The notes below the pieces were generated by a model. It searched no databases, was not told the origin of the DNA, and saw nothing but the letters and a program-made list of their open reading frames with translations. DNA of 64,000 nucleotides from Leifsonia shinshuensis. Lineage in GTDB: Bacteria; Actinomycetota; Actinomycetes; Actinomycetales; Microbacteriaceae. This document shows, piece after piece, positions 44,040 to 57,667 of this stretch (the stretch's first letter is position 1; each line of letters begins with the position of its first letter). The translations under genes and the position numbers were made by a program. The stretch is from contig NZ_CP043641.1 of assembly GCF_014217625.1 (NCBI RefSeq), positions 1,984,001 through 2,048,000 of the forward strand. The letters are read 5' to 3'.

Positions 44040-44444
44040 TCAGCGCGCGTCTCGCTCCGCTTCGATCACGGGTCGCCTCGCGCAGATGTCGTGCACTCGG
44101 ATGAACCATGTGGTCCACGGCCCGTGGCGGTACCCGCCCTGCGGGTTCTGAGGAATGTTCTCGAGAGATGAACCCGCAAGCCGTTCAATTGCTCTGCGCG
44201 CTCGTTCCCATCCAGGGATTTCGACGACGTCGACGACTTCGACGCCGTTCCTGAACAGACCTCCGACGTACCAGCCGCCGTCATGTTTTGCGCTGTCGTC
44301 GTGACGGTCGACGTCGTAGGTGGTTTCAAGTGGCAGGTTCGCTTCGATCCAGTCGATGACCCACAGGACTTCGTCAGTTGAAACTGGCTTCGCCCGGCCA
44401 TTCGTGCCGTCGAAATCTTCGCGATCGCTAGTGAGCTCGGTCAT
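44040..44444 (-). CDS. Hypothetical protein
   Basis: A 134-residue acidic protein starting MTELTSDREDFDGTNGRAKP. The body (STDEVLWVIDWIEANLPLET, HDGGWYVGGLFRNGVEVVDV, GPWTTWFIRVHDICARRP) looks like a folded alpha/beta domain. No ribosome binding site is clear. It lies 98 bp downstream of the LexA-controlled pair and could be a third member of that operon. Not recognised. Confidence 0.6.
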   Translation of the reverse strand: MTELTSDREDFDGTNGRAKPVSTDEVLWVIDWIEANLPLETTYDVDRHDDSAKHDGGWYVGGLFRNGVEVVDVVEIPGWERARRAIERLAGSSLENIPQNPQGGYRHGPWTTWFIRVHDICARRPVIEAERDAR

Positions 44445-44542
44445 GTCCGAGTAGATGCGGCAAGGACGAGCAGCCCTCCACTCTCAGTCGCTGTGGCATC
44501 GGAGGCACAGTTCGAACCAAGCCGTCACCGCGGCGAAAATCG

Positions 44543-44878
44543 TTACGGAGTTGGGCCGTCATAGCCCTTCCGCCGCACGGCATTCGCCCACAGCCACACG
44601 TGCTCGGCGAACCGCTCCCCCGGTGGGGTGAAACGCACAAGAACCGCTCCGCCAGGTGTCCACGCGATCACCTCCGCGTCAATCTCGACGACGTCGTTGT
44701 AGGCGACGCGGATGGGGACCAGCGCCCGGACGGGAACTCCCGGTTTCTCGTCCGTGCGGCGGCCCGTCGCCCGAACTAGTTCCTCCGGAAGGCTGACCGG
44801 GCTGGGACGACGATCCCGACTCGTGGCCTCCGATGCGAGCTTCTGGGAGTAGACGTCGTAGCGATGGTTGGTCCCCAT
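44543..44878 (-). CDS. Hypothetical protein, second gene of the LexA-controlled pair
   Basis: A 111-residue protein starting MGTNHRYDVYSQKLASEATS. The C-terminal half (VPVRALVPIRVAYNDVVEID, AEVIAWTPGGAVLVRFTPPG, ERFAEHVWLWANAVRR) looks like a small beta-barrel. Its ATG overlaps the stop of the upstream DUF6504-like gene as TGATG, so the two are co-translated and share the SOS promoter. Confidence 0.65.
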   Translation of the reverse strand: MGTNHRYDVYSQKLASEATSRDRRPSPVSLPEELVRATGRRTDEKPGVPVRALVPIRVAYNDVVEIDAEVIAWTPGGAVLVRFTPPGERFAEHVWLWANAVRRKGYDGPTP

Positions 44879-45147
44879 CAGACGAAGACAGCAGTGAGCT
44901 GCCAGCGGGTACCGGCCACCTGGTGCACATCGAAGACGCGCGCGTCACCATCGACGACGCTCGTCGCCTGGAACCTCCACCCGACAACGCGCGTACCTGG
45001 ATGAGTCAGCGCATCATGGACGACGTCCTGTACGAGTGGCTCCGGATCATCGGTGACAAGATACCGAATTCCACGCCACACGAGCCGTGCCGGCCGGTCG
45101 CCGTCGGTCCATACCGACACGATCTCAGGTGCGTGGGCAAGGCTCAT
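44878..45147 (-). CDS. DUF6504-like small protein under SOS control
   Basis: An 89-residue protein: VSVWTDGDRPARLVWRGIRY, GWRFQATSVVDGDARVFDV. The R-x-x-W-R-G-x-R-Y-x-V...W-R-x-Q...FDV pattern is that of small actinobacterial proteins (DUF6504) usually found beside translesion polymerase genes. No polymerase gene is near here. GGAGGT lies four bases before ATG 45147, and a perfect LexA-type palindrome is 12 bp upstream. A role in DNA damage response is a fair inference from context. Confidence 0.75.
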   Translation of the reverse strand: MSLAHAPEIVSVWTDGDRPARLVWRGIRYLVTDDPEPLVQDVVHDALTHPGTRVVGWRFQATSVVDGDARVFDVHQVAGTRWQLTAVFV

Positions 45148-45159
45148 GACTACCTCCAT

Positions 45160-45210
45160 TACTCGAACATATGTTCGAGTAAATGATAGGTCTCCGACGC
45201 GGGGAAGCAA
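45160..45210 (-). promoter_or_regulatory. SOS (LexA) box and promoter
   Basis: A perfect 22-bp palindrome (45160-45181) contains TCGAACATATGTTCGA, matching the actinobacterial LexA consensus TCGAAC-N4-GTTCGA. Directly upstream on the minus strand are a -10 TATCAT (45183-45188) and a -35 TTGCTT (45205-45210), 16 bp apart. LexA bound here would cover the transcription start. Confidence 0.85.
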
Positions 45211-45242
45211 CACCACGACCTCCGCCATGTGAGCTGAACTCG

Positions 45243-46088
45243 TTAGGGTTTCAGCCCCTGAAGCTTCGCCAACCGTTCCGAAACGGTGCCCGCCCGGCGG
45301 TCAGGTGAACACGCGGCCAACCAGCGTTTCAACACTGCGATCTCTTCGTCCCGGCGGCCGAGCTTCCGAAGTATGATCGCCGCCTGCTCGGTGTACCACG
45401 GGGCCGGTTCGCGGCCGTTGCGATCCCGTTCCGCCCCCTCGATCGCCAGATAGCAGAGCTGCAACGCCTCCTCAAGCCGGCCCTCCCGTTTCAGCTGCTT
45501 GATGGGCTCCACGGTCTGCAAGTAGTGGATGCCGTTCACGCTCGCGTTCTGGAACTGTGCGGCTCGAGCACCTCCGCCGGCAACCGCAGCGGCGATCATC
45601 GCGTCGGTTCCCCGCGCCGCCGCTTTCCGCTTCTCATCCGGAGTCATCGGCGGCCTGCGCGACGACGAGAACTCCCATCGCGGCGTGCCGCCACCGAGCC
45701 ACACCCAGCCCTCCACACGCAGACCCTTCGGCGTAATCGCAGTGAACAACTGGACGGGCGCGACAACTGCAGCATGTTCGGAGAGGTCCAGGGTCACCGC
45801 GACGTAAGACGGCACGTACCCGATGCGATCGCCGTGGACGTTCACCGTCACTGCATACGGGTCGGCTGGGTTCTGCGGTTCTCGTTGCAGCGTCGCGGCG
45901 ACCTCGAGGTACCCGTTCTCACCCAAACCCATCCTGGTTTCGAGCGCGTTCGCCGAGTCCTTCGCGACCGTTGTGGTGCAGGCGATCTTCTCCAGGCCGA
46001 CGGCGCCTGCCGACGTGGTGAAGGTGACGGCTGACCGAGGCGGTGGCCCCGCGACGTCCTTCCGTCGAAACTTATCTAGTAAGCCCAT
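45243..46088 (-). CDS. HIRAN-domain protein
   Basis: A 281-residue protein. Residues ~60-95 are a HIRAN-type domain: LEVAATLQREPQNPADPYAV then NVHGDRIGYVPSYVAVTLD, with the typical L-x-REP-x-NP-x-DP-x-AV and IGYVP motifs. Such domains recognise DNA ends or damaged DNA and are common in accessory regions. Residues ~195-275 are helical and TPR-like (REGRLEEALQLCYLAIEGAE, YTEQAAIILRKLGRRDEEIA). It lies 97 bp after GntR copy B in the same direction, possibly co-transcribed. Confidence 0.75.
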   Translation of the reverse strand: MGLLDKFRRKDVAGPPPRSAVTFTTSAGAVGLEKIACTTTVAKDSANALETRMGLGENGYLEVAATLQREPQNPADPYAVTVNVHGDRIGYVPSYVAVTLDLSEHAAVVAPVQLFTAITPKGLRVEGWVWLGGGTPRWEFSSSRRPPMTPDEKRKAAARGTDAMIAAAVAGGGARAAQFQNASVNGIHYLQTVEPIKQLKREGRLEEALQLCYLAIEGAERDRNGREPAPWYTEQAAIILRKLGRRDEEIAVLKRWLAACSPDRRAGTVSERLAKLQGLKP

Positions 46089-46185
46089 GCGGGAATTGTG
46101 GCAGACAGCTTGCGCCCTTCCGCCGTCGAGCGGGCTCGTTCATCCACCTGCGGCGCCCCGTCCGCTGCAACGGGATCATGGACGC

Positions 46186-46683
46186 TCAACCGCCCGGGTG
46201 GAGATCCTCGAGCTCCTCACGAATCGTGTTACCTTCGGGCGCTGCCGCCGGCGGGAGCGTCCTCCTCTGGCCACGCGGGTCCAGGTCGCGAAACCTGTCA
46301 GTGGTCTCTGTGATCAACGCGAGCTGTCCCCGCCGATCCGTTGCCCGCTCCCCGCTGACGACCATCCTGCTCGCAAGCAATGCGGTCACATCATGGAACG
46401 TGACCCCAAGCGCCGTCGCGAACTCCGCGAGCTCATTGACCTGCTCTAACAGTTGGCTGTTGCGAACGCGCGCGGGCACAACGATCGCGTGCCCACGCCC
46501 GTTCTCGTCCTTCACGGCGAAACCTTGCTGACGCAACTGCTCCAAGGCGGCCACAACCGTCCCGCGACTTGCTGCGGTCGCACCCTCCAATTCCGTAGCG
46601 GAAGGCAGTCTGTCTCGAATCTTCCGACCGACAATCAACGCAGATAGCACGTCAACCACCAACGCCGGGGCTGTTTTGAGCAT
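46186..46683 (-). CDS. GntR-type (KorSA-like) small regulator, copy B
   Basis: A 165-residue paralogue of copy A at 30733. Shared elements: ALIVGRKIRDRLPSATELEG, LRQQGFAVKDENGRGHAIVV, LLASRMVVSGERATDRRGQL and a C-terminal REELEDLHPGG. GAGGAG seven bases before ATG 46683. Two copies of a palindromic operator lie directly upstream, unlike in sequence to those of copy A, so the two proteins probably have different binding specificity. Confidence 0.78.
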   Translation of the reverse strand: MLKTAPALVVDVLSALIVGRKIRDRLPSATELEGATAASRGTVVAALEQLRQQGFAVKDENGRGHAIVVPARVRNSQLLEQVNELAEFATALGVTFHDVTALLASRMVVSGERATDRRGQLALITETTDRFRDLDPRGQRRTLPPAAAPEGNTIREELEDLHPGG

Positions 46684-46698
46684 CAGTATTCTCCTCGA

Positions 46699-46761
46699 TC
46701 GGTAAATTCACGTGAACCGACAAGTCGATTATGCCCCAATCGGTGAATTCAGGTGAACCGA
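46699..46761. promoter_or_regulatory. Paired operators upstream of GntR copy B
   Basis: Two 22-bp sites TCGGTnAATTCAnGTGAACC(GA) at 46699-46720 and 46740-46761, 41 bp apart. Each has TCGGT/ACCGA outer arms around a TTCA-TGAA core. Confidence 0.65.
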
Positions 46762-46905
46762 GCGCGTCACCGGCCTAGGCGTCGATCAAGGTTGCGATAG
46801 GGAAAATCGCTGCGCATATGCAAAGATTGCGCTATTGTAATTGTTGACCAAAGCTACCTAATGGGTCTGGACGTGGCCCCGGCGGCGATCAAAAACGGGG
46901 TCCTG

Positions 46906-47118
46906 TCCCAGGGAAATCCGGTGTCAAAGCCAGGATAAGACAAACAAAAACCCCAAAAGACCAGGGCTTTCTCCCCCAAAACCCCTACTGTACTTACCTT
47001 AATCTTTAATAGATCACTTAAAAGAAAGAATCAGTATATATAAAGGGGCCGGGGCCGGAAATATATACCCTCCAATAGCCCTATAGGGGCCAATCTGGCG
47101 AAAACCATAAGACAATCG
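46906..47118. repeat. AT-rich conserved block, copy B
   Basis: About 213 bp collinear with 31497-31714: gacaaacaaaaacccc, ctactgtactta, aatagatca, cttaaaagaaaga, gtatatataa, ggggccggggcc, gaaatata, ccctata, ggcgaaaa, aagacaatc. It lies 223 bp upstream of GntR copy B, the same layout as copy A. The terminator of copy A is not well conserved here, although the T-run is. Confidence 0.75.
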
Positions 47119-48181
47119 ACCTCCGCCACCCCCACTCCCGTTTCAGGCGCTGGGATGCAGCCCGTCTCACCGCACCCTGCGACACTACTTCCGACCGTGG
47201 GACGCGAAAGACGAATCCAGCCTCACAGTGCGCCCACCGGGCAAGCGTCGATCCGGCCCGCCGAAGACCGCCACCGTCCCCAGACGCAGGCTCACCGCCC
47301 ACAGAAGGCCGCTGCCTCGCAGGCGCCGCCTCGCCCATTCTGCGCAGCCAACAGCGCCCACAGCGCCAGCAAGCCCGTCCCCAGCAGCGCTCGACGCCTC
47401 CGGGACCCCAAAGCTGGCAGAACGCCGCAGCCGCCACCAGGAGACGGCTCGCCAACCCCGCGCGACGCGCGACGTCTTCGGCACGTCCGCGATCGTGCCG
47501 TCCGCTTCGACGACCGCGTGGCGTGACGAGCTGACGCCGGTGTTGGTGGGCGATATCGACGCCCACGCCGAGATTGTCAGCGGGCCCAGCCTGAGCGATG
47601 GCCACGGGATGGGGTTAGCCAGCCCACGCAGGACTACAGGATCGCGGGTCGCTAGCCTCCAAGCTTCATTCCGCCGTCGTCGCTGTCACCGGGCAGATGA
47701 TCCAATCGCTGCCCACCCAGTCGACCGCCGCATCTAGTCGCTCGACAGGAAGTGAGCGCCACCATGACCATGACCCGCCCGTTCCTCGCCCGGCCAACCG
47801 CCGCTCAGGGGTGGGGAGAGCGGCTACCCACCGCATCAACCGTTTGGATGCGTTCACAGCCTCGAATGAACCGCTCGTGGATCACAGTCGCCTGTGACGT
47901 CTGCGATTCGGCGGCTACCCACGGTTTCACGCGTGCCCCCGCACACAGTCACGGTGAGGGTTGCCGCATCTACCTTCTCGACCGCCGCCGCCCACCCACA
48001 CACCGGAGGAACCCGATGGACACGACAGCTACCCATCACCGTCGAACGACAGAAAACGTCAGCAGAAATCACCTCACGCGCAATGCCCACCGCCAGCTCG
48101 CGATCTGAGCACCCAACCGGCTCGGCCAAGCTCGCAAAGGTTCACGTGCAAACAGTGACCACCCCTAACCCGAGAGACACC
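47119..48181. other. About 1.06 kb, at most one small gene
   Basis: GC-rich spacer after block B. The frames at 47081-47605 and 47155-47737 are shadow-like. The ORF at 47764-48108 is the only one with any support. Confidence 0.45.
47764..48108 (+). CDS. Uncertain small ORF
   Basis: A 114-codon frame starting MTMTRPFLARPTAAQGWGER and containing CDVCDSAATHGF with a later HGEGC, a possible small zinc-binding arrangement. AGGAAG lies about 13 bases before the ATG, too far for a good site. May be coding. Confidence 0.3.
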   Translation: MTMTRPFLARPTAAQGWGERLPTASTVWMRSQPRMNRSWITVACDVCDSAATHGFTRAPAHSHGEGCRIYLLDRRRPPTHRRNPMDTTATHHRRTTENVSRNHLTRNAHRQLAI

Positions 48182-48745
48182 ATGACCTCCACCTTCGACC
48201 TCCTCCTCGCCCACGCCGACGAAATCCGTACCGCGAGCGAAACCACCTGGGAGCACGACACCGACGCGGCTGACCACGCAACCACGTACTGCGAGCAGTG
48301 GGGCGTCCAGCGACGCGATGTCCACATGTTCGCCGCCCTCCGCCAGTCGAAGCTGCTGCGGGAGGCTTTTTCCGAGAAGTTCGACGCCCTGCCGGAGGTC
48401 GACGACTTCGAGGACTTCGTCAACCAGCTGATCAACGTCATCGACCCGCACATCGACTTCGACTCGCTGGCGAAGCGTGTCGGCTCGTTCGTTCGCGAGT
48501 ACCTCCCGGCCGGGGTTGTCGTTACGGCACCCAGCGTCGGGTACACCTTCGACGACGCCTCCGTAGTGCTGAGCCATCCGTCGGCGCCCGGCGTAACATG
48601 CGAGCTCCACCTCAGCGGTGAGGATGCGTCACCGGAGGAGATCCTGTCCGCCGCGGCGGTCGCATTGGAGACCTGGTGGTACGAGGTGGTCGGCGAGCCG
48701 GATCTCGTTGAGGTTGCTGCGATGACCGCCGAGCAGCGCGAATAG
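48182..48745 (+). CDS. Hypothetical acidic protein
   Basis: A 187-residue acidic protein starting MTSTFDLLLAHADEIRTASE. Helical N-terminal half (FAALRQSKLLREAFSEKFDA, EDFVNQLINVIDPHIDFDSL) and a beta-rich second half (VVVTAPSVGYTFDDASVVLS, GVTCELHLSGEDASPEEILS). Codon usage is typical of the host, so it is very probably a real gene. Family not recognised. Convergent with the Ubl operon. Confidence 0.65.
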   Translation: MTSTFDLLLAHADEIRTASETTWEHDTDAADHATTYCEQWGVQRRDVHMFAALRQSKLLREAFSEKFDALPEVDDFEDFVNQLINVIDPHIDFDSLAKRVGSFVREYLPAGVVVTAPSVGYTFDDASVVLSHPSAPGVTCELHLSGEDASPEEILSAAAVALETWWYEVVGEPDLVEVAAMTAEQRE

Positions 48746-49051
48746 GCTCTCAGACGCCTGATTTTCAGCAATGAACTCGCGACCGCTGTCGTCAAGCTCG
48801 CGGCGGAGGTCAACGACCGACTCACAATTGTTCCGTCGGCGGAAGCATTGTGAGCATTCGGACTCCACTTGTCCTCCTGGCGCGGACGGCTCTAGCGGTC
48901 TGATGATCATCGGCCGGCGTCCCCGCGGGTGCGACTCCTGACGCCAGATTTCAGCGGTGCGCCGCCATACGCCCGCGCGACCAGAGAGACCTGGCGGGAT
49001 CGATAATCTGATCACTCGCTATGTCGCCGCTCGTGCGGCATCTAAGGAGTG
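48746..49051. other. No gene supported
   Basis: Short convergent intergenic region between the hypothetical gene and the end of the Ubl operon; no strong hairpin seen. Confidence 0.5.
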
Positions 49052-50464
49052 TCAGCGGATCTTCACCGGCAGGGTAACCGTATCGCCACGGCCGAACCGC
49101 GCCGGTCCGCACCACGGGCAGTCCCGGTCCTTCCGTGTCCCGTCAAGGTCGTACTCGCCGTTCAGGGCGTCAACGGTGACCCAGTCGGGGATGATGCTCC
49201 GTTTTGCCAGCCCGACTGTTCGTAGCAGCCACTCGTTGACGGCGATGCTTGCCGCGACGGCATTCAAGCTGATCACACTCGGCGCGTGGACGTCTTCGTC
49301 GTCGACGTAGCGTTGCCGTTTTCGTTCGGCTGCGGGTGTGGCTTCCTCCGTGAGTTTCGACGGCGTGATCAACCCGTTGCAGCGCAAGCAGGTCGCTCCC
49401 GGTTCGACTAGCCGGATGACGCTGAAAACCGCGTTCACGTCGCCCTTCCCACGGTCAATGCTCGCTTTCGCTCCGATCTGGGTCACCGGGATCAAATACT
49501 GGTGAGCGATCGCGTTCACGATCAGCCGGGCGGTGTGCGAGTCCGCGGCGAGGAAGATGTGGTTACATTCCAGGAGCTGCTTCCACACTCCGGGGTCTTC
49601 GACGCTCCCCAGCACAGTGTCGACTTGGGCGCCCCGCGCTGCCTGCTTCGCCACCCGCTTCGCGACGCGGACTTTCGGGGTCGCCAGCCGTTCACCAATT
49701 CGGCGTACCCAGCCGGGCCGGCGTGAGTCGGTCAGCCACGGGTGCGCGTCGAACCTTCGTGCACCGACGATGCGGGAGAGATTGCTGGTCTCGAGTCGGT
49801 CCGGGTCCACCAGCAGCAGGTTGCCGACCCCGAGCCGGGCAACCATTTCGTTGATCAGCGACCCCGCCCCGCCGAGACCGATGATCGCGATCCTCTGCCG
49901 GCGGAGGATGTCCTGGCCAGCGTCTCCGAACATCAGCGCCTGCCGGTGATATGCCTGTGCAGCTGCGATCGACTCTTCCGGCTGTGGTCGAAGCTCGCGT
50001 CGGTCCGGCCCGGTGACGGTCAGCTTCTCGATCGGGTGACGTCTCCCATCGGTGGTCCAGATGTCCCCGGCGACAGCGTTATCGGCGAATACGAGCGCGC
50101 CGACAGCGGGCGCGCCGGTCAATTGCAGGATCGCCGGGTAGCTGCGTTCATGAGATGCCATGTCGGTGTCGGAGAAGCCGACCCGGTCTCGGCCGCCGTG
50201 ATTGTGAACGGCGAGGTAGATGGAATGGTCGTCTGCGAACCGTAACGCCTGCTCGGTCACGAAGTCAGCTTTCAACTGCCGGTAGGAGCGTGTCCCGGAG
50301 ACGTAGTCGCGGCTGTCGATCGCGGGGATGACTTCGCGGACGAGCAGCCGGGTGCCGGCGAGACCACAGCGGAGAACGGCGCCGTGTTCGTCGTTGTCGC
50401 CGGGGAACAGGTGGCCGTGAAGCTGCTCCCAGTGTTCTCCGGTGATGGTGACGGTCCAGCTCAT
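49052..50464 (-). CDS. JAB-E1 fusion of a bacterial ubiquitin-like system
   Basis: A 470-residue fusion. The N-terminal ~150 residues are a JAB/JAMM isopeptidase: Glu26, then H87-x-H89 and S98-x-x-D101 in AVHNHGGRDRVGFSDTD, a complete metal-site motif. The C-terminal part is a ThiF/E1 adenylation domain: GLGGAGS (196-202), LLVDPDRLETSNLSR (220-231), then two zinc-type pairs CLRC (359-362) and CPWC (449-452). The E1 would adenylate the C-terminus of a ubiquitin-like protein and the JAB domain would process or remove it. ATG 50464 overlaps the E2 gene stop as ATGA. The frame continues upstream but only as shadow. Confidence 0.9.
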   Translation of the reverse strand: MSWTVTITGEHWEQLHGHLFPGDNDEHGAVLRCGLAGTRLLVREVIPAIDSRDYVSGTRSYRQLKADFVTEQALRFADDHSIYLAVHNHGGRDRVGFSDTDMASHERSYPAILQLTGAPAVGALVFADNAVAGDIWTTDGRRHPIEKLTVTGPDRRELRPQPEESIAAAQAYHRQALMFGDAGQDILRRQRIAIIGLGGAGSLINEMVARLGVGNLLLVDPDRLETSNLSRIVGARRFDAHPWLTDSRRPGWVRRIGERLATPKVRVAKRVAKQAARGAQVDTVLGSVEDPGVWKQLLECNHIFLAADSHTARLIVNAIAHQYLIPVTQIGAKASIDRGKGDVNAVFSVIRLVEPGATCLRCNGLITPSKLTEEATPAAERKRQRYVDDEDVHAPSVISLNAVAASIAVNEWLLRTVGLAKRSIIPDWVTVDALNGEYDLDGTRKDRDCPWCGPARFGRGDTVTLPVKIR

Positions 50465-50865
50465 TGTGTCTCCAGCCATTGCTGCACTTTCAGGAGCTTC
50501 CCTGCTGCGCTGTTCCATTCGCTGCGGACGTTTCGGGTGATCCGGGACAGCTGGGTTGATGCGATGTCCCCTTGAGGCCCGCACATGATCGGCTGCTGGA
50601 ATCCGTTCTCCGGCCGGAGTTCGGCGCCGTCGTTGCGGCGCAGATCCGGGCGGACGAACAAGGGGTAGATGTCCGCTTCCGGGTAGGTGAACGGGATCCT
50701 GAACCGAACCCAGCTGTGCTGGACGGTGAACGCATTTCCGACCGGGATCGAGTCGACCAGCACCCAGACGCCGCCGTCCCCGGTCTCATCCACTGACACG
50801 GTGGCGTCCGGGAACGTTGCGCGGAGCTCGTCGACCGCGTGGGCGACGTCTGCGTTGATCGTCAT
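50461..50865 (-). CDS. E2-like protein (prokaryotic E2 family E type)
   Basis: A 134-residue protein with the shape of a prokaryotic E2: helix (DVAHAVDELRATFPDATVSV), strands (VWVLVDSIPVGNAF, SWVRFRIPFTYPEADIYPLF) with the YP element, and a C-terminal helical pair (TRNVRSEWNSAAGKLLKVQQ, WLETQ). The only cysteine, Cys95 in QPIMCGPQGD, falls where the catalytic Cys is expected, just before the last helices. It overlaps the Ubl gene and the E1 gene by four bases on either side. Confidence 0.8.
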   Translation of the reverse strand: MTINADVAHAVDELRATFPDATVSVDETGDGGVWVLVDSIPVGNAFTVQHSWVRFRIPFTYPEADIYPLFVRPDLRRNDGAELRPENGFQQPIMCGPQGDIASTQLSRITRNVRSEWNSAAGKLLKVQQWLETQ

Positions 50866-51131
50866 GAGTTGTCGTCGTTGTCCATCGCGGCGAACTCGGA
50901 TTCCTTGTTGACCTGGACGGTGTCGTGATCCCCGATCGGGGTCCGGCGTCCGTTGTGTTTCAGCTCGAACAGGACGAAGGTCAGCTGGATCGCGACACCC
51001 TGACGGATCGCCGCTTCTTTCAGTTCGAGACCGGTGTACTTACGCTGCTGCAGAACGATCTGCTGCTTGTTGAACAGCACGTCGACGCTTTTCGCCTTCG
51101 CGAACTCGTCGATCGACTCGGTGGTTGTCAT
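50862..51131 (-). CDS. Ubiquitin-like protein (multiubiquitin family, single domain)
   Basis: An 89-residue protein. Residues ~16-82 match the multiubiquitin-type beta-grasp domain: DVLFNKQQIVLQQRKYTGLE, LKEAAIRQGVAIQLTFVLFE, GRRTPIGDHDTVQVNKESEF. The C-terminus is AAMDNDDNS with no Gly-Gly, so activation would need either trimming by the JAB domain or an unusual carboxyl end. AAGGGGT precedes the ATG. Most family members have two or more copies of the domain; this one has one. Confidence 0.82.
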   Translation of the reverse strand: MTTTESIDEFAKAKSVDVLFNKQQIVLQQRKYTGLELKEAAIRQGVAIQLTFVLFELKHNGRRTPIGDHDTVQVNKESEFAAMDNDDNS

Positions 51132-51143
51132 TTCGTACCCCTT

Positions 51144-51803
51144 TCATGAGGCGGTTGCGGTATCGCGCTGGCGGCGGCGGGGCCGACCTGATGCTTTCTG
51201 AGGTGCTGCAGGCCGGACGGTCAGCAGCGGCTTGGTTTCGGCTTGTGGGCGTCGTCGATGCTGGGCGATCACCAGCCGGTTTCGGATGATCCGGGCGGCG
51301 TCTCGCATCTCCGACACCGTTGTCGTCACCGGCAGTCCCGCTGCACGGCGTGCGGAGTGCTCCAGGTAGCGACGGCGCAGGCCGATGAGGAAGGTGATGA
51401 ATGCGGCTCCGCTGAGGCCGAGGAGGACAGTGCCTGCCCACACATCCGACCGTGTCGGTGTGCCGACGAGGTCGCTCACCCCCATCCATCCGAACGCGAC
51501 CGTGTAGAACGATGCCGTCATGATCAGCGGAGCTCGCAGCCCGAGCGACGTGCCCGCGTGAAGGTAACGGGCGGCGTTGAACCGGGCGTCGTCGCGCAGC
51601 CGCGCCACCGACTCGTTCCGGTCCGTTGCCTGCCATGTCGGTGGTTCACCTTTCCCGGCGGCCTCGAGCCCGGCGGCGAGTTCCAACGAGATGCGCGCCC
51701 GTTCGGCGTATCGACGGCCCGGCGTGCGGCGCGCCTGGATCAGCGCGACGATCGGTACCAGCACTGCGAGGACCTGCAACGTCCTGTCGAGCATCTCGCC
51801 CAT
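51144..51803 (-). CDS. Three-helix membrane protein of the Ubl operon
   Basis: A 219-residue protein with membrane helices at about 9-24, 92-113 and 121-143, a cytoplasmic helical loop between the first two (RRYAERARISLELAAGLEAA) and a basic C-terminal tail (last ~40 residues, KASGRPRRRQRD). The start at ATG 51803 is 17 bp after the DUF2188 stop; the longer frame is shadow. It could be a membrane effector or target of the conjugation system. Family not assigned (SLATT-like architecture is a possibility). Confidence 0.75.
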   Translation of the reverse strand: MGEMLDRTLQVLAVLVPIVALIQARRTPGRRYAERARISLELAAGLEAAGKGEPPTWQATDRNESVARLRDDARFNAARYLHAGTSLGLRAPLIMTASFYTVAFGWMGVSDLVGTPTRSDVWAGTVLLGLSGAAFITFLIGLRRRYLEHSARRAAGLPVTTTVSEMRDAARIIRNRLVIAQHRRRPQAETKPLLTVRPAAPQKASGRPRRRQRDTATAS

Positions 51804-51820
51804 GTCGATCGCCGTCCGGT

Positions 51821-52042
51821 TCAGCCGCGCGGAGGGAACGGGTCGTTCCCGTACGTGCGCTCGTCCTCGATGGTGCCGTCCTGCCTGTGGATGAGCAGCT
51901 GGCTCGGCTGGTTCGCACTCGCGACGGCGACGCCGGCGGCGATCGCGGGCGGCTTCGTCAGATGGTTGGACAGGGTCCGCCCGTCGTGGGTGACTCGCCA
52001 CTGTGCGCCGTTCTGGACGACGTCGAAACGCTTGCGTGCCAT
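51821..52042 (-). CDS. DUF2188 small protein, first gene of the Ubl operon
   Basis: A 73-residue protein: FDVVQNGAQWRVTHDGRTLS, AIAAGVAVASANQPSQLLIH, RQDGTIEDERTYGNDPFPPR. The W-x-V...A-x-x-x-A...QLxIHxxDGxIxxExTYGxDPxPPxG pattern is DUF2188. AAAGGAG six bases before the ATG gives a strong start. Such proteins are often the first or last gene in accessory operons; no activity is known to me. Confidence 0.82.
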   Translation of the reverse strand: MARKRFDVVQNGAQWRVTHDGRTLSNHLTKPPAIAAGVAVASANQPSQLLIHRQDGTIEDERTYGNDPFPPRG

Positions 52043-52107
52043 GATCTTCTCCTTTTGGGGATCTCCCCGTGTCGAGCGTCGCGTGATGCGTACGCTAGAT
52101 GCATCAG

Positions 52108-52164
52108 CGTTCCACTTCTGCAACATATGTACGAGACTAGCGTCATTGTTTGACTTCTGCAACA
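52108..52164 (-). promoter_or_regulatory. Two 18-bp operators upstream of the Ubl operon
   Basis: Read on the minus strand, TGTTGCAGAAGTCAAACA (52147-52164) and TGTTGCAGAAGTGGAACG (52108-52125). Arms TGTTGCA and T-AAACA make an imperfect palindrome around GAAG. They lie 39 bp apart, 65 to 125 bp before the DUF2188 start. The same sequence occurs at 53004-53021 before the XRE gene. Confidence 0.7.
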
Positions 52165-52338
52165 CGTTGGCGCGTGTCGCGGTCGGCCGGCCCGCGATTG
52201 CGATCAGTGGAGTAGATGCGCGCCCGCCGGGAGAGTCCACGAGCGCGCCCTCGTTCTCACCCGTCGACGCCTGAACACAGCGTGCGGACAGCGAGCCGAA
52301 TTTCGCCAATGAGCCCGCGGCGATGCCACAGTGAAAGC

Positions 52339-52893
52339 ATGATCACCAGCACCACCGTGTCGATAGACAAGATCCGCGAAGATCAAAGACGGATATACGA
52401 GCACATCGGCCTCTACACCGCGGCGAGCGCTGGCCTCGACCAACTTCTCGGAGAACTCCTCACCAAGCTTTCACTCAAACCAGCCACGACCTTCGGAGGG
52501 AAAGTAATCCGGCTGGCGGAATTGCCACAGATGAACGCATGGGCAGATTGGTGAGCACTCCGCATATCACTCAACGAGATCAAGGACTACCGCAATCGCC
52601 CCACACACTCGTCACTCGTCGCACGAATCTCCGTCACGGCAGGTGAGGTAGTCCACGTCGGGTTGAGGGAGAGCACAACAATGACCCCTGAACCACACGA
52701 CTTGGTGGGACTCGAAGAAGCGGAGGACCGCCCGGGCATAGTGCATTTGACGGTCTACTCGATAGTTCACCGACACCTCGGCGACTTTGCCACATTGACC
52801 GTCCGCGCGATCGCAACCGACATCGTCGAGGCAAGCGTGCCCGGGTTCCAGGATGCGCTCAACGCCGTTTATCCCGCGCATAAGCGCGCGTAA
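52339..52893 (+). pseudogene. Hypothetical gene with an in-frame TGA
   Basis: One continuous frame of 184 codons, broken only by TGA at 52552-52554. The first part begins MITSTTVSIDKIREDQRRIY and ends LAELPQMNAWADW. After the TGA the same frame reads ALRISLNEIKDYRNRPTHSS, HDLVGLEEAEDRPGIVHLTV and ALNAVYPAHKRA. Both parts look like the same helical protein. Probably an inactivated gene (a Trp codon changed to TGA is the simplest cause). Function unknown. Confidence 0.65.
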
Positions 52894-53003
52894 CAGAGCA
52901 TCAGTAAAAGGTCGCATCATCGCGCGACATGAAGATCGATAAGGACGCCAACATTGGCGCTGACAAAATTCGCAGCATCGCCTCTGCCATCAAACCGGGA
53001 TAC

Positions 53004-53021
53004 TGTTGCAGAATTGAAACA
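53004..53021 (+). promoter_or_regulatory. Operator upstream of the XRE/ImmA pair
   Basis: TGTTGCAGAATTGAAACA, matching both sites before the Ubl operon. Arms TGTTGCA/TGAAACA. It lies ~110 bp before the XRE start and overlaps a possible -35 (TTGCAG), with an A/T-rich -10 region (TAATAA) near 53032. Confidence 0.7.
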
Positions 53022-53130
53022 ACCAAATAACTAATAAAACCTGCCGATTAGCTGCCTAAGAAGCCATCCAGTAAATCCGGTCATCGAAACCATCACGTCA
53101 CCAGCAGATGAAGAAACCAGAGCAGACAGC

Positions 53131-53499
53131 ATGAAAACGACACGCATCGACGTACGCGGACTGTACTCGGCACTCGACGCCGCCCGCAGAACCGAAGACA
53201 AATCATGGCGCACACTCGCAAAAGACACCGGCGTTGGACCGTCGCTGTTCTCCAGAATGGCGAACGGATACAAACCAGACGCAGACAGCTTCGCCAAGTT
53301 AGTGGACTATTTGCGAGTTGACGCCAGCCAGTTCTTCACCGATCGCGACGAAGACGCCGATCGCGAAGAGCCGGAACTCGTCGTCCAACTGGCGCCCCTT
53401 TTGCGAGCCCGGAAAGACTTGAACGACGCAGACGTCGCTTACATCGAAGAAGTTATCTCCGCCACCGTGAGACGAGCGCGGGCCGCAGCAAACGGATGA
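53131..53499 (+). CDS. XRE-family regulator
   Basis: A 122-residue DNA-binding protein with a helix-turn-helix in DKSWRTLAKDTGVGPSLFSR and MANGYKPDADSFAKLVDYLR. The C-terminal ~50 residues are acidic then helical (DEDADREEPELVVQLAPLLR). The following ImmA/IrrE gene overlaps it as ATGA. In such pairs the XRE protein is a repressor that the peptidase inactivates under stress. The matched operators suggest that it represses itself and the adjacent Ubl operon. Confidence 0.85.
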   Translation: MKTTRIDVRGLYSALDAARRTEDKSWRTLAKDTGVGPSLFSRMANGYKPDADSFAKLVDYLRVDASQFFTDRDEDADREEPELVVQLAPLLRARKDLNDADVAYIEEVISATVRRARAAANG

Positions 53500-54032
53500 T
53501 CCGTGGTTTCAAGACCCGGGCGAAAGCCCTAGCGCTCGAAGTTCGGGAAGAACTGAACCTAGACCTGATGGACCCGTTCGACCCATACGAACTGGCAAAG
53601 CTGTACGGCATCGAAGTCGTGGCCACCAGCGTCCTCCTGCCGGCGACAGCACCCAAGGACGCCATCTCCGGAGCACTCGTACCAACCGGGACAGGCACCA
53701 TCATCATCGACAACGACTCCGAACCGCCAGGACGCCGCAAACTCACCACAAGCCACGAAATGTCCCACGTGGTCCTCGAACACGAATTCCCGGCAGCGAT
53801 CGTCGACGAACAAGGGTGCCGGACAACCATCGGCGACCAAGAAGACGAAGCGACGTTCCTCGCCGGTGAACTCGTCCTCCCCTACAACGCCGCTCTGAAA
53901 CTCGCATGGCGGAACACGCCCGACGCCGTCGTCGCCCGCGACTACGGGATCAGCGTCCACGCCGCCGCCTGGAGGATGAACGCGTCAGGCGCCCGAATGC
54001 TGGTCAATCGATCCAGGAAACGACGCCGCTGA
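53496..54032 (+). CDS. ImmA/IrrE-family metallopeptidase
   Basis: A 178-residue zinc peptidase. The HExxH motif is H87-E88-M-S-H91 in TSHEMSHVVLEHEF, and the third ligand Glu is in EDEATFLAGELVLP (about 118). Family members (ImmA, IrrE/PprI) cleave XRE-type repressors. The overlap with the XRE gene and the shared operator upstream make cleavage of that repressor the likely job. Confidence 0.88.
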   Translation: MIRGFKTRAKALALEVREELNLDLMDPFDPYELAKLYGIEVVATSVLLPATAPKDAISGALVPTGTGTIIIDNDSEPPGRRKLTTSHEMSHVVLEHEFPAAIVDEQGCRTTIGDQEDEATFLAGELVLPYNAALKLAWRNTPDAVVARDYGISVHAAAWRMNASGARMLVNRSRKRRR

Positions 54033-54071
54033 CCGGTCGCCTTCCAAGCGACGTGGGGATCAACTTCGGCG

Positions 54072-54585
54072 CATGGAACCGTGCGTGCCTCAACTCGACC
54101 CGAACTTCTGGCTCAGCTGCGCCCATTCGTAACAGGCGTCATCGCCGATGCGTCCGACCTCACCGCGTACACGGATCGACAACCATAGGCCGTCGTCACG
54201 CCACTGGCCGTATGGATGCACACACAAGCAGGGCTGCCCCTCGACCGCGATGTCACATTCGACCCGTACACGATCGACCAGTTCGTGATGCTCGGGCTCC
54301 GCCATTACACGCGCGCCGGGAAACGAACCATGCCGTCCCGGCTGCGCCGCCTCAGCGAAGTCCTCGTACCTGATCTCCGCGACGCCGCCCAGGAACGCGC
54401 GCTCGGCAAATCCGAACGCGTCTCCCCGTACACCGAAGCTGAACAGACCTAACTCCGGGTTTGGACGCGGGCCCTGCCGGCAACGATCGCCGAGAACAAC
54501 GCCGCGCGGCTCCTTGCTCTCATATTCGGCGCCGGCCTCCAAGGCGCAGAAATCGGAAACCTTCGCGGGCGCACGTCGGGCGGTG
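54072..54585 (+). pseudogene. Tyrosine-recombinase-like gene, broken by two stops and truncated
   Basis: One frame reads TRPELLAQLRPFVTGVIADA, a TAG at 54174-54176, then FVMLGLRHYTRAGKRTMPSR, SEVLVPDLRDAAQERALGKS, a TAA at 54450-54452, then AENNAARLLALIFGAGLQGA and EIGNLRGR. The LLALIFGAGLQGxEIxxLRGxD element is the start of a phage-integrase catalytic domain. It stops at about 54580, where sequence of the 40-kb module family follows directly. The catalytic R-K-H-R-H-Y part is lost. Confidence 0.65.
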
Positions 54586-54746
54586 CGTCTGCTGCGAGTG
54601 GTTCGTCTTAAGTTGGGGAGCGAGCGTTGTTCGACATCCAGTCGTTGAGCGAGAACACCGCTGTTGCCTTCACCCGGGGGACGACCACATATGTGACGGA
54701 CATCCGACCGATTGAGCCTGACGGCGTTCTACCCGACAACAAGTGA
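54583..54746 (+). pseudogene. Relic of the 40-kb module family, frameshifted
   Basis: VRLLRVVRLKLGSER, then after a one-base deletion LFDIQSLSENTAVAFTRGTT and TYVTDIRPIEP to a stop. It matches the C-terminal module of the gene at 43328-43852 and the relic at 13766-14036. It is fused directly to the broken recombinase gene. Confidence 0.65.
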
Positions 54747-54952
54747 ACAACCGCCGCTAGGTGATGACCATCCGCGCGACCGTCAACCAGTGTTGCGCGG
54801 AGACGAGAAGATCCAGACTTAAGACGTTGTCGGTCTCCTCAAGAGTGAGGAAATCGCCGATCTATTGCATTTCGGTTTCAGCGATCGCGACGGCCCCGCC
54901 GAGGCGAATTCACGCCGGAGCGGTCAATGGCCTCCGACCGCTCCGGCATCGC

Positions 54953-55366
54953 TCACGCGCGTCCTGCGTCTCTTACCAGTGCTGTATCGACGAACTGCTC
55001 GAATCGTACGATGACGCCGCCACGCACGACGAAGTGGTGGGCTACACGGACGTCGAGTGCTTTCTGCGTGGCCTTATTGGTGGCGGTGTACCGTGCCAGC
55101 ACTACCACGTTCTCGCCGTCCACGACGTAGGTGTCGTCGTGCGCAGTCCAACCGTCCCAGTCGCGGCCGAGGATCTGCATCACATTGTCAGTCACTCCTT
55201 GGGGGGTGCGGTAGGTTCCGGCGAGGGGGAACCCAGCCATCTCCTTCCATTCGACATCAGGTGCCAGAGTGGCGCGGAGCGCCTCGAGGTCGCCGCTCGC
55301 TGACGCGATGTACTGACGGCGGACGACATCGGCGGGTGCATCACCCGTTGCATAGATCAGCCCCAT
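54953..55366 (-). CDS. SnoaL-like (NTF2 fold) protein
   Basis: A 137-residue NTF2-fold protein: VRRQYIASASGDLEALRATL, PDVEWKEMAGFPLAGTYRTP, RYTATNKATQKALDVRVAHH and GVIVRFEQFVDTALV. Typical of SnoaL_2 small-molecule isomerase or hydrolase-like proteins, with the conserved D-V-x-W and F-x-x-F-x-D-T elements. It overlaps the stop of the upstream MBL gene by ten bases. Confidence 0.82.
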   Translation of the reverse strand: MGLIYATGDAPADVVRRQYIASASGDLEALRATLAPDVEWKEMAGFPLAGTYRTPQGVTDNVMQILGRDWDGWTAHDDTYVVDGENVVVLARYTATNKATQKALDVRVAHHFVVRGGVIVRFEQFVDTALVRDAGRA

Positions 55367-56160
55367 GAGAGTTCTCCCTTCGCAACCTTCGTGCCCAGGT
55401 TCACCGCGATGGCGAGCCCTGCATCCGGGTACTGCCCGAGGAGTGACTGCTCAGCCGAGGCTGCGTCCTTGGATTCAGCGATAGTCTTCTCAAAGTTCCG
55501 GAGATATTCGCTCGTGTGCCGAATGGCGGCGTCGTCAGTCGACGATCCTGCTTTGCGGTGGCCGGCCGCGACGAATTGTGGATACAGCGACGCGAAAGCA
55601 TCGAGGGCGTTCAGCCAAGCCTCACGGGACTCTGTCGTCGCGGTGTCGGCGGTCCAGACATGGAGGCCGTCGAAGAGAAGGATACCGCCGACTGTCGAGC
55701 GAGACTCCGGGTCCCAGACATGCCAGCCACGGTCCCCGAGCTCGTCTGCGATACGGCGGAGCTCGAGGCTGTGCCCTTCGAGGTCGAAGGTACCTTCGAA
55801 CGGCTCGATCTCGACGAGTCGCGTCGGCAGATTGGCGCCCAGATGGGCCCATGCCTGCAGCTTGGCCTCGAAACTGTGGTTGATGTGCTCGATAACATCC
55901 TGCGGGGCAAGGACGCGGATCCCCGGGAACGCGTCAACGATCACTTCCGCGCCGAAATAGAAGTCGGGGTCACCGGCTGTGATCAGAACCGCCGTCGGGG
56001 TTTTGCCGGAGTCGAGCGCTGCCGCCACGATTCGGTGAGCGTCCGCGAGTGTGAAAGCCGCGTCGACGATCACAGCCTCACGCTCCCCCGCGATGAAGAC
56101 GCTGGTCTTGTTCAGGGACGAATCCGCGAAGTCGAGGATCGTATATGTCAATTCACTCAC
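55357..56160 (-). CDS. MBL-fold protein with altered metal motif
   Basis: A 267-residue MBL-fold protein. The fold is clear (SSLNKTSVFIAGEREAVIVD, GGILLFDGLHVWTADTATTE, PQFVAAGHRK), but the usual HxHxDH is TAGDPDFYF, so two histidines are gone. AGHRK may still supply one ligand. Relatives with this altered motif are known to me only as uncharacterised hydrolases. First gene of a pair with the SnoaL-like protein, divergent from an HxlR regulator. Confidence 0.82.
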   Translation of the reverse strand: MSELTYTILDFADSSLNKTSVFIAGEREAVIVDAAFTLADAHRIVAAALDSGKTPTAVLITAGDPDFYFGAEVIVDAFPGIRVLAPQDVIEHINHSFEAKLQAWAHLGANLPTRLVEIEPFEGTFDLEGHSLELRRIADELGDRGWHVWDPESRSTVGGILLFDGLHVWTADTATTESREAWLNALDAFASLYPQFVAAGHRKAGSSTDDAAIRHTSEYLRNFEKTIAESKDAASAEQSLLGQYPDAGLAIAVNLGTKVAKGELSWG

Positions 56161-56306
56161 GTGGAGCCTCCTATGTATCTATCCCACGTCGCCTCCGTTC
56201 CCCGTGGCGCGGTCCTTGCTCAAGCGCCAAGTACACCCACGATTACTGAATCGGTGCGACAGAGTTACGATAAGAGACCAATCCTCTTGTCGGAAGAAGG
56301 CACTTT

Positions 56307-56675
56307 TTGGGAACCAAGGATCTTCGAGGCAACCCCTACCTGGCGGGCTGCCCAACTCGTCGAATTCTCGATCGCATTGGAGATCGCTGGACGGTGCTTG
56401 TCGTGGGAGCGCTCGGAACCGAAACCCGCCGCTTTTCGGACGTTCGCCGTCACGTTGAGGGAATCTCGCAGAAGATGCTGACCCAAACTCTTCGAGCTCT
56501 CGAGCGAGACGGTCTTGTAAGCCGAACTGTGTACCCAGAAGTGCCAGTGCGAGTCGAGTATGCGCTCACGGCCGCAGGTCTCACTTTGCGAGAACCGCTT
56601 CGGGCACTCGAGCTTTGGTCGATCGAACACCTCGACGATATAGAAGCGTCGAACGGAAATTACGACAAGGTCTAG
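56307..56675 (+). CDS. HxlR-family transcriptional regulator
   Basis: A 122-residue winged-helix regulator: CPTRRILDRIGDRWTVLVVG, RRFSDVRRHVEGISQKMLTQ, TLRALERDGLVSRTVYPEVP, VRVEYALTAAGLTLREPL. All HxlR hallmarks are present, including the near-N-terminal Cys. The start is TTG at 56307 with AGAAGG six bases upstream. It probably controls the divergent MBL/SnoaL pair through the 146-bp space between them. Confidence 0.87.
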   Translation: MGTKDLRGNPYLAGCPTRRILDRIGDRWTVLVVGALGTETRRFSDVRRHVEGISQKMLTQTLRALERDGLVSRTVYPEVPVRVEYALTAAGLTLREPLRALELWSIEHLDDIEASNGNYDKV

Positions 56676-57520
56676 ATCACATCGAGGCGCAGAGTCGGCT
56701 GCGATTCGGCCGCCCACATAGCGGCCTTCTGGCGTTTCGATGCAGTCATTCGCGAGAGCCCGCCGAGCGACGGCATCGTCGAAGGCGGGCGACTGGACAC
56801 CGGAATCTCAGCCTGGGTCACCGGATGGGAATGCCAGGGGTCGATCGACGCCGCGTCCGCGTAGACGGACTCCACGCGGCCGAGCAGGGTCTCGAGCACG
56901 TAGCTCCAGTGCGGGAACATGTCGACGACGATCCCGCCGCCGTCCTCGGCCCGGTAGTTCCAGCTCGGGCGCTGGGCGGCCTGCCAGTCGCCCTCGAACA
57001 CCCAGTAGCCGAACTCGCCGCGCACCGAGAGGATGCGGCCGAAGAAACCGGAGCCGATCAGGCGCCGCAGCTTGCGGAGACCGGGGAGGTAGAGCTTGTC
57101 GTGCACGACACCGTTCTTGATGCCGGCCTCCTCGGCCAGCCGGGCGAGCTCCAGGGCCTCCTCGAAGGACTCGGCCGTGGGCTTCTCGGTGTAGATGGCC
57201 TTGCCCGCCGCGATGGCCTTCCGGATCGCCGCGCTCCGCGCCTTGGTCACCAGGAAGTCGGCGTAGATCTGCCAGCGGTCGTCGGCCAGGGCGGCGTCGA
57301 GGTCGGTGGTGTAGTCGGCGATGCCGTGGCGTGCGGCCACCTCGGCGAGCTTCTCCTCGTTGCGGCCGACGAGCAGCGGGACGACCTGCACGCCCGTTCC
57401 GTCGGAGAGCAGCACGCCGCCCTGCTCGCGGATGGCGAGGATCGAGCGCAGCAGGTGCTGCCGGTAGCCTATGCGCCCGGAGACGCCGTTCATGATGATG
57501 CCGATCGTCGACTTTGACAC
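56672..57520 (-). pseudogene. Gfo/Idh/MocA-family oxidoreductase, 3'-truncated
   Basis: From GTG 57520 (AGGGG five bases upstream) the frame gives a Rossmann domain (TIGIIMNGVSGRIGYRQHLL, VVPLLVGRNEEKLAEVAARH, KAIYTEKPTAESFEEALELA) and the first part of the dimerisation domain (GVVHDKLYLPGLRKLRRLIG, GGGIVVDMFPHWSYVLETLL). After about 56845 the family match ends. The last ~50 codons are unrelated and run to the convergent HxlR stop. Family members are about 380-390 residues; this has 282. Probably cut by the insertion or deletion that brought the HxlR region here. Confidence 0.75.
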
Positions 57521-57667
57521 TGGTGCCCCTAGAGTTTGCGTAAACGGGAAAGCCCTTACCAGTGCTAAAGGGCGCAGCATCACGAGGTCAAGTTTGTGAG
57601 TTCTCGCGACCATGTCCGAGCGACCTGGGCTGCGATTACGGGAGAACTCGCGGCTTCGCCGATTTGT

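Follow-up and report, generated by a model that had tools for sequence, protein, structure and literature searches.

A ubiquitin-like conjugation operon of Leifsonia shinshuensis as a probable member of the DUF6527-free branch of Bub systems

Type 6e operons are described, in the passages of Iyer et al. (2006; PMC1779556) devoted to them, as sporadically distributed and as encoding a ubiquitin-like protein (Ubl) of one to three repeats, a JAB domain N-terminal to an E1, a cysteine-less E2/RWD-like protein located between the Ubl and the JAB-E1 and judged inactive, and a zinc-finger partner with the signature C-x3-C-x(35-38)-H-x2-C. Among other bacterial systems, BilB has a catalytic Cys138 within a CEHH motif (excerpts of PMC11354881) and Cap2 of type II CBASS resembles an E1-E2 fusion (excerpts of PMC12355090), while protection against phage has not been shown for Bub operons (PMC13373217). 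The present analysis deals with an operon of five genes in the 4.6-Mb genome of Leifsonia shinshuensis (RefSeq assembly GCF_014217625.1), located within a window of 64,000 nucleotides (contig NZ_CP043641.1, positions 1,984,001 to 2,048,000 of the forward strand; positions below are those of the window). It is quite likely that this operon is a Bub system (Iyer type 6e) of the branch without DUF6527, probably with serine-based E2 chemistry and probably under the control of a CapH/CapP pair.

A first-pass annotation, made from the letters alone, had read positions 49052-52042 as a ubiquitin-like conjugation operon of five minus-strand genes, and the five open reading frames (ORFs) are all found there, in the order DUF2188, membrane protein, Ubl, E2 and JAB-E1, with the ATGA overlap that it had described among the last three genes visible at both the Ubl/E2 and the E2/JAB-E1 junctions. 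The third-position GC of the five ORFs (0.77-0.89) is consistent with genuine genes, and the ribosome-site-like AAAGGAGAAG precedes the DUF2188 ORF. The search for the same gene order in related genomes, which the annotation had recommended, leads to Leifsonia virtsii (locus L006), where the closest named operon found has the identical five-gene order at 72% DNA identity and where the adjoining pair of helix-turn-helix (HTH) and ImmA/IrrE genes shows 76% identity. The annotation was right that Ubl, E2-fold and JAB-E1 proteins are encoded here as parts of a ubiquitin-like conjugation operon; a divergent HTH and CapP-like pair just outside the five genes had been overlooked. The profile searches also proposed then gave matches above the cut-off for DUF2188, Multi_ubiq and ThiF, a match below it for Prok-E2_E, and no JAB profile.

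Bil and CBASS had been named as the nearest comparison, whereas the closest characterised system is, on the relationships of the encoded proteins, Bub: the best PDB match of the JAB-E1 is Citrobacter BubCD (9ea4_A, E 5.7e-31, residues 7-416) and the best structural match of the E2 model is BubB. The ThiF profile scores 99.1 bits on the JAB-E1 (cut-off 28.1), and the JAB assignment, for which no profile was reported in searches of the Pfam/NCBIfam type, rests on the JAMM motif and on the BubCD alignment. The conservation of the protein was followed in a sample of 121 sequences, made up of that of the window and the best 120 of 2818 matches. The JAMM motif is complete (E26 + H87xH89-x8-S98xxD101), with E26 in 119/121 and the other four residues in every protein, and the ATP-loop glycines, R231, K264 and D308 are invariant, which bears out the earlier statement that both motifs are intact. 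Four zinc-type cysteines (359, 362, 449 and 452) are also invariant, and Cys33 and Cys300 are present in 119 and 118 proteins, respectively. Since Ser396, located in an APSV motif, is found in all 121 sequences and in BubCD as well, and no majority cysteine lies between residues 363 and 448, a role for this serine in the E1 is possible.

The Ubl is recognised by the Multi_ubiq profile (26.3 bits, cut-off 24.5) and its structure model is a single beta-grasp domain, the best structural matches of which are bacterial multi-ubiquitin proteins (9d59, 9d5b, 9d5a, 9cd2 and 8u38); it had rightly been called a single-domain protein of the multiubiquitin type. That one domain would be unusual does not hold, and was rejected as a novelty: the text of Iyer et al. 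(2006; PMC1779556) on type 6e gives "one to three repeats", and 4/14 relatives on genome contigs (L006, L009, L011 and L013) have one domain. The absence of Gly-Gly had likewise been noticed correctly, the C-terminus being DNDDNS, but it is no oddity. A profile search of the loci found Ubls in 34 of them, 25 being distinct, and the final four residues of these are DDNS in 21, EDNS in two, DNNS in one and HEDS in one, so that 24/25 end in (D/N)NS. Tails of this type occur in actinobacteria, Rhizobium, Mesorhizobium, Nostoc and Deinococcus, and are common to short Ubls of one domain and to long ones of two or three domains, as judged by length. In operons that bear DUF6527, the free Ubl ends are TTEG (L024, L048), GHGNH (L047), TRRS (L001), TTRS (L002) and ANRS (L003), with (D/N)NS in 0/6; a seventh such operon (L050) has the Ubl and the E2 fused into one protein and hence no free Ubl end. 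These comparisons mark the (D/E)DNS tail as the usual end, and the signature, of the DUF6527-free branch of Bub. Since it is nearly fixed and never extended, the tail is suggested to be either the activated end or a recognition site for the JAB domain. Two points count against so neat a division: the Ubl profile was itself built from DDNS-like tails and is biased toward them, and the final serine is not exclusive to the DUF6527-free branch, because three of the six DUF6527-type ends also finish in it, as (R/T/N)RS.

Among the other loci, several operons with long Ubls (L007, L008, L012 and L015-L018) have, upstream of the Ubl, parts of one common group of ORFs (about 600-630, 323, 290-320 and 344 aa), and the upstream ORF of the 344-aa class in L017 shows a HELGH zinc-protease motif. 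In other Multi_ubiq operons (L001, L002 and L003), with HTH and ImmA genes and DUF6527 close by and Ubls ending in (R/T/N)RS, the E1-like ORFs are without a visible JAMM motif.

PDB searches with the Ubl or the E2 sequence alone gave nothing useful. Profiles performed little better: one Ubl profile (A3) reached 9rsv (E 0.023) and the multi-ubiquitin 9cd2 (E 0.062) as weak rows, a second had no matches in PDB, and the E2 profile reached BubB at E 0.097 only. For this reason structure models were used, and the E2 assignment, with the Prok-E2_E profile at 21.2 bits (cut-off 25), rests mainly on the model. The sole cysteine of the protein, Cys95, was indeed there as first described, but a catalytic role for it across the family is unlikely, because among 121 E2s (that of the window and the best 120 of 2453 matches) only four, the window included, have a cysteine at this column. 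Tryptophan occupies it in 91/121 and 100/121 proteins are without any cysteine. By contrast, Q105, S107 and R108 are present in all 121 E2s, and this Q-x-Ser-Arg motif leads us to expect serine chemistry. In the model, Ser107 comes after strand 101-106 and before the last helix (120-133), whereas Cys95 closes strand 89-95, 12 residues ahead. The VIA end points pair residue 134 of the model with residue 115 of Ubc13; Cys87 of the latter, its classical E2 cysteine, would therefore fall near residue 106, and Ser107 would sit about where that cysteine lies, a position derived from end points and not from a residue-level alignment. A probable serine-based mechanism has to be set against several unfavourable points. 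The sample covers only the best-scoring members of the family, the E2 of Mesorhizobium huakuii (L044) is without the exact QxSR motif, and HMMER, on our reading of its alignment, places the SR of the window-type QxSR and that of QRWSR in BubB one residue out of register, so that the equivalence of Ser107 and the serine of BubB is not firm. A profile comparison with three DUF6527-type E2s puts SR on SR, weakly (E 0.02, probability 2.3%), and one of the three (L047) is without SR.

The retention in the closest relatives of Cys95, the only cysteine of the E2 of the window, makes a clade-specific role for it conceivable and leads to a classical alternative, in which Cys95 is the active site, a thioester is formed and the clade is a cysteine-using offshoot. 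This is distinctly unlikely in view of the largely cysteine-free family, of the tryptophan that prevails at the column and of a position at the end of a strand, and Ser107 is kept here too; Cys95 as active site was rejected on conservation. It has also been considered that the protein is an inactive, RWD-like binder of BubA and that the E1 hands BubA to the target or to a residue of its own, e.g., the Ser396 that it has in common with BubCD within the APSV motif. Such a view would agree with the type 6e passages of Iyer et al. (2006; PMC1779556), in which the missing cysteine is read as loss of activity. An invariant serine in a mostly cysteine-free family speaks against that view, and the invariant Q-x-S-R, at about the expected classical site, argues for catalysis; an inactive E2 is thus improbable. 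Published Bub work reportedly describes active E2s with oxyester intermediates, and Ye et al. (2026) are reported to have observed such intermediates in Bub. Lastly, the ThiF family membership of the E1 half and its four fixed zinc-type cysteines could suit sulfur transfer or small-molecule synthesis of the ThiS/MoaD kind, and not protein tagging. An E2-fold partner, a fused JAB domain, a Ubl without Gly-Gly, an operon without any cofactor-synthesis gene and best solved relatives that are Bub proteins make this very improbable.

Returning to the Bub reading, its regulatory part concerns the genes on the other side of the operon promoter. The second gene of the divergent pair encodes a protein that matches Peptidase_M78 (48.4 bits, cut-off 22) and the capP model of PADLOC (E 3.1e-13), and a related HTH gene stands at the equivalent position in L. 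virtsii, within the same HTH and ImmA pair. Within the 64 kb, the element TGTT-N10-AACA is found at two sites (expected 0.21; at least two in 1/100 shuffles) and TTCTGCAACA at three (expected 0.05), and every one of these sites lies in the gap that separates the HTH gene from the operon. In the L. virtsii locus TGTT-N10-AACA is found three times, all in the equivalent 343-bp gap between HTH and DUF2188 (0/200 shuffles); TTCTGCAACA, searched among 52 loci, appears also in that gap, in duplicates of both regions and once elsewhere, in L023. By analogy with described CapH/CapP pairs, in which single-stranded DNA activates cleavage of the repressor, the operon is probably controlled by such a pair, with DNA damage as its probable trigger. 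Some of the evidence weakens this proposal. The HTH_3 profile on the HTH gene stays under its cut-off (19.4 bits against 23), and no CapH model matched the gene. The operator patterns were picked after inspecting the gaps, and the expectations are therefore a guide only. Matches to the window HTH and ImmA proteins are found in 2/14 genome-contig loci (L006 and L011) and in 0/10 loci with long Ubls, and 5/15 plasmid regions (L022-L025 and L048) have both genes annotated next to the operon. A PDB search with the CapP-like protein returned nothing and one with the HTH protein returned one weak row (E 0.024). A promoter scan gave no sigma-70-like site, and terminator-like sites number six, against 2.3 in shuffles. 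The gap, which exceeds its L. virtsii counterpart by about 750 bp, also holds an ORF at 52339-52893 (+) with one in-frame TGA, the two pieces of which have no Pfam match above the cut-off.

The membrane protein had been described as having three helices; two hydrophobic segments, one starting near residue 4 and one near residue 121, exceed the hydropathy threshold, whereas a third, read from the sequence at about 90-110, stays under it. Searches of Pfam, NCBIfam, PADLOC and PHROG, at the thresholds applied, gave no match for the protein, and 5.8 billion proteins contain only five matches to it, itself included. Each of the remaining four shares its contig with a close JAB-E1 relative, three as judged by equal contig sizes (6128, 6504 and 50276) and the fourth being L. 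virtsii, and the gene is present in 2/60 relative genomes (its own, G000, and G001), which are also the two genomes with the operon. The membrane protein is thus a linked and clade-restricted partner. In Rhodococcus koreensis (L010, 4791-5348) a predicted membrane protein of 185 aa with four hydrophobic segments directly follows the JAB-E1. The first gene had been correctly named, with DUF2188 (PF09954) at 50.6 bits (cut-off 22); its product also matches the PADLOC candidate PDC-S16 (E 1.4e-17), and no other DUF2188 match exists in the genome. On a Rhizobium phaseoli plasmid (L024, 4941-8787) HTH, ImmA, DUF2188, Ubl, E2, JAB-E1 and DUF6527 genes stand in a row, so that DUF2188, which is not mentioned in PMC13373217, recurs before the Ubl in both Bub branches.

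Taken together, the operon may be proposed to work as follows. The HTH repressor would keep the divergent promoters shut through the candidate TGTT-N10-AACA sites until DNA damage or phage attack activates the CapP-like protease, which would cut the repressor, a step proposed because of the gene pair, the sites and the published CapH/CapP work. The E1 half of the BubCD-like protein would then bind ATP and adenylate the C-terminus of BubA, presumably at the conserved DDNS end, and BubA would move to Ser107 of the E2, a conserved residue, as an oxyester and not as a cysteine thioester. The E2 would place BubA on a target, for which the co-encoded membrane protein is one speculative candidate, and the JAB half, with its intact motif, would trim or remove it. 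The likely role is a stress response or phage defence. A bolder and rather doubtful extension is that this is a distinct Bub branch, in which an unprocessed Ubl with a genetically fixed Asp-Asn-Ser end in place of Gly-Gly is adenylated and transferred through an E2 serine, and in which a small actinobacterial clade tags its co-encoded membrane protein as the dedicated substrate. If that were so, DNA damage would turn on the tagging of a membrane protein and gate a membrane effect that halts phage or stressed cells.

Table 1. Position of the genes, motifs and candidate regulatory elements in the window
Feature	Coordinates	Strand	Basis
DUF2188 protein, 73 aa, first operon gene	51821..52042	-	Pfam PF09954, PADLOC PDC-S16
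Membrane protein, 219 aa	51144..51803	-	Hydropathy
BubA-like Ubl, 89 aa, one beta-grasp domain, end DNDDNS	50862..51131	-	Multi_ubiq, model
BubB-like E2-fold protein, 134 aa	50461..50865	-	Mainly structure model
E2 Cys95 codon	50581..50583	-	Cys 4/121, Trp 91/121 at column
E2 Ser107 codon, Q-x-S-R motif; proposed Ubl acceptor	50545..50547	-	QxSR 121/121
BubCD-like JAB-E1 fusion, 470 aa	49052..50464	-	PDB match 9ea4_A, ThiF
JAMM motif H87xH89-x8-S98xxD101 of JAB domain	50162..50206	-	All four residues 121/121
HTH gene, CapH-like by position, divergent from operon	53131..53499	+	HTH_3, position
CapP-like ImmA/IrrE metallopeptidase, 178 aa	53496..54032	+	Peptidase_M78, PADLOC capP
Candidate CapH-type operator TGTTTGACTTCTGCAACA, DUF2188 side	52147..52164	.	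TGTT-N10-AACA
Candidate CapH-type operator TGTTGCAGAATTGAAACA, HTH-gene side	53004..53021	.	TGTT-N10-AACA
Third, imperfect copy of operator element, ends TTCTGCAACA	52108..52125	.	Direct repeat D1

A full-length JAB-E1 is present in 2/28 genomes of the genus, the other matches spanning only the surroundings of the ATP loop, and in 3/299 genomes of the family, where seven have any match and four of these are partial. In the phylum, 10/396 genomes have any match: three are full-length, one of which (G522) has an in-frame TAG, six are partial and one (G384) is in two adjacent pieces; the three samples overlap in the genome of the window. Plasmid records with matches number 102 of 72,556. A phage origin was rejected, there being no JAB-E1 match in 50,697 phage records, which leaves room for carriage by a prophage. 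The GC content is 0.59-0.65 at 44-60 kb, with the operon inside, against 0.68-0.74 at 1-8, 32-38 and 60-64 kb, and the low-GC stretch also holds a HIRAN-domain protein (45243-46088, -) with a weak PADLOC match to PDC-M03B. Genes at 6-8 kb and 61.5-62.5 kb have counterparts in 28/28 genus genomes (weak in G018 and G022 for the latter), and for one at 36-38 kb only G017 offers a near-full-length counterpart. Among ten ORFs between 10.8 and 42 kb, Pfam gave metabolism families in eight and none in two; PADLOC gave no match in ten ORFs between 10.8 and 36.6 kb, the other ORFs there being unscanned. In the five genomes with Multi_ubiq, PF20137 (DUF6527) has no match in G000 and G001 and one each in G004, G026 and G034, at 1.4-1.5 kb, start to start.

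How the locus compares with the described systems can now be stated. Bil, with its catalytic cysteine in a CEHH motif, was rejected, since the E2 family here has no conserved cysteine, and so was type II CBASS, the E2 and the E1 being separate genes and no CD-NTase being matched (no nucleotidyltransferase in Pfam for 18 sequences of the window from the region 44040-57613). Both Bil and type II CBASS (Cap2/Cap3) share the bacterial E1/E2/JAB logic with this operon, and differ from it in that its E2 is a separate protein of a mostly cysteine-less family. CapH and CapP have in common with the window an HTH and ImmA/IrrE pair at the promoter of a conjugation operon, with a CapP-family protease of 178 aa against the 242 positions of the capP model and an HTH gene of weak profile. 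The multi-ubiquitin proteins that resemble the Ubl model, some of them filament-forming, have 146-219 residues; the Ubl of the window is single-domain, and a filament of several domains per protein is therefore not expected. Compared with type 6e as presented in those passages of Iyer et al. (2006; PMC1779556), the number of Ubl repeats, the E2/RWD-fold protein, encoded between the Ubl and the JAB-E1 and lacking a conserved classical cysteine, the JAB fused N-terminal to the E1 (ThiF) with both motifs intact and the sporadic distribution are alike. The differences are the invariant serine in an E2 family judged inactive there and the zinc-finger partner, not seen beside the operon, where DUF6527 alone was searched by profile and the signature itself was not. 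Finally, with respect to Citrobacter Bub (PDB 9ea4, 9ea5, 9ea8, 9eae and 9eav), the BubA of which is the longer protein (its chain in 9ea8 is residues 155-229), the Ubl here has one domain and a (D/E)DNS end, the operon adds the DUF2188 and membrane genes, and a profile search of the whole genome for DUF6527 (PF20137) gave no match. Its compact form, with one Ubl domain, a C-terminal tetrapeptide that hardly varies in the branch, no DUF6527 gene and a tightly linked membrane gene, makes this operon a handy system in which to study the target, the bond and the purpose of conjugation, and the membrane partner could reveal what the pathway acts on. The Bub family and its single-domain Ubl have been known since 2006; what is new is the composition, that is, DUF2188 and a rare membrane protein (the literature being unsearched for its gene) within a Bub operon.

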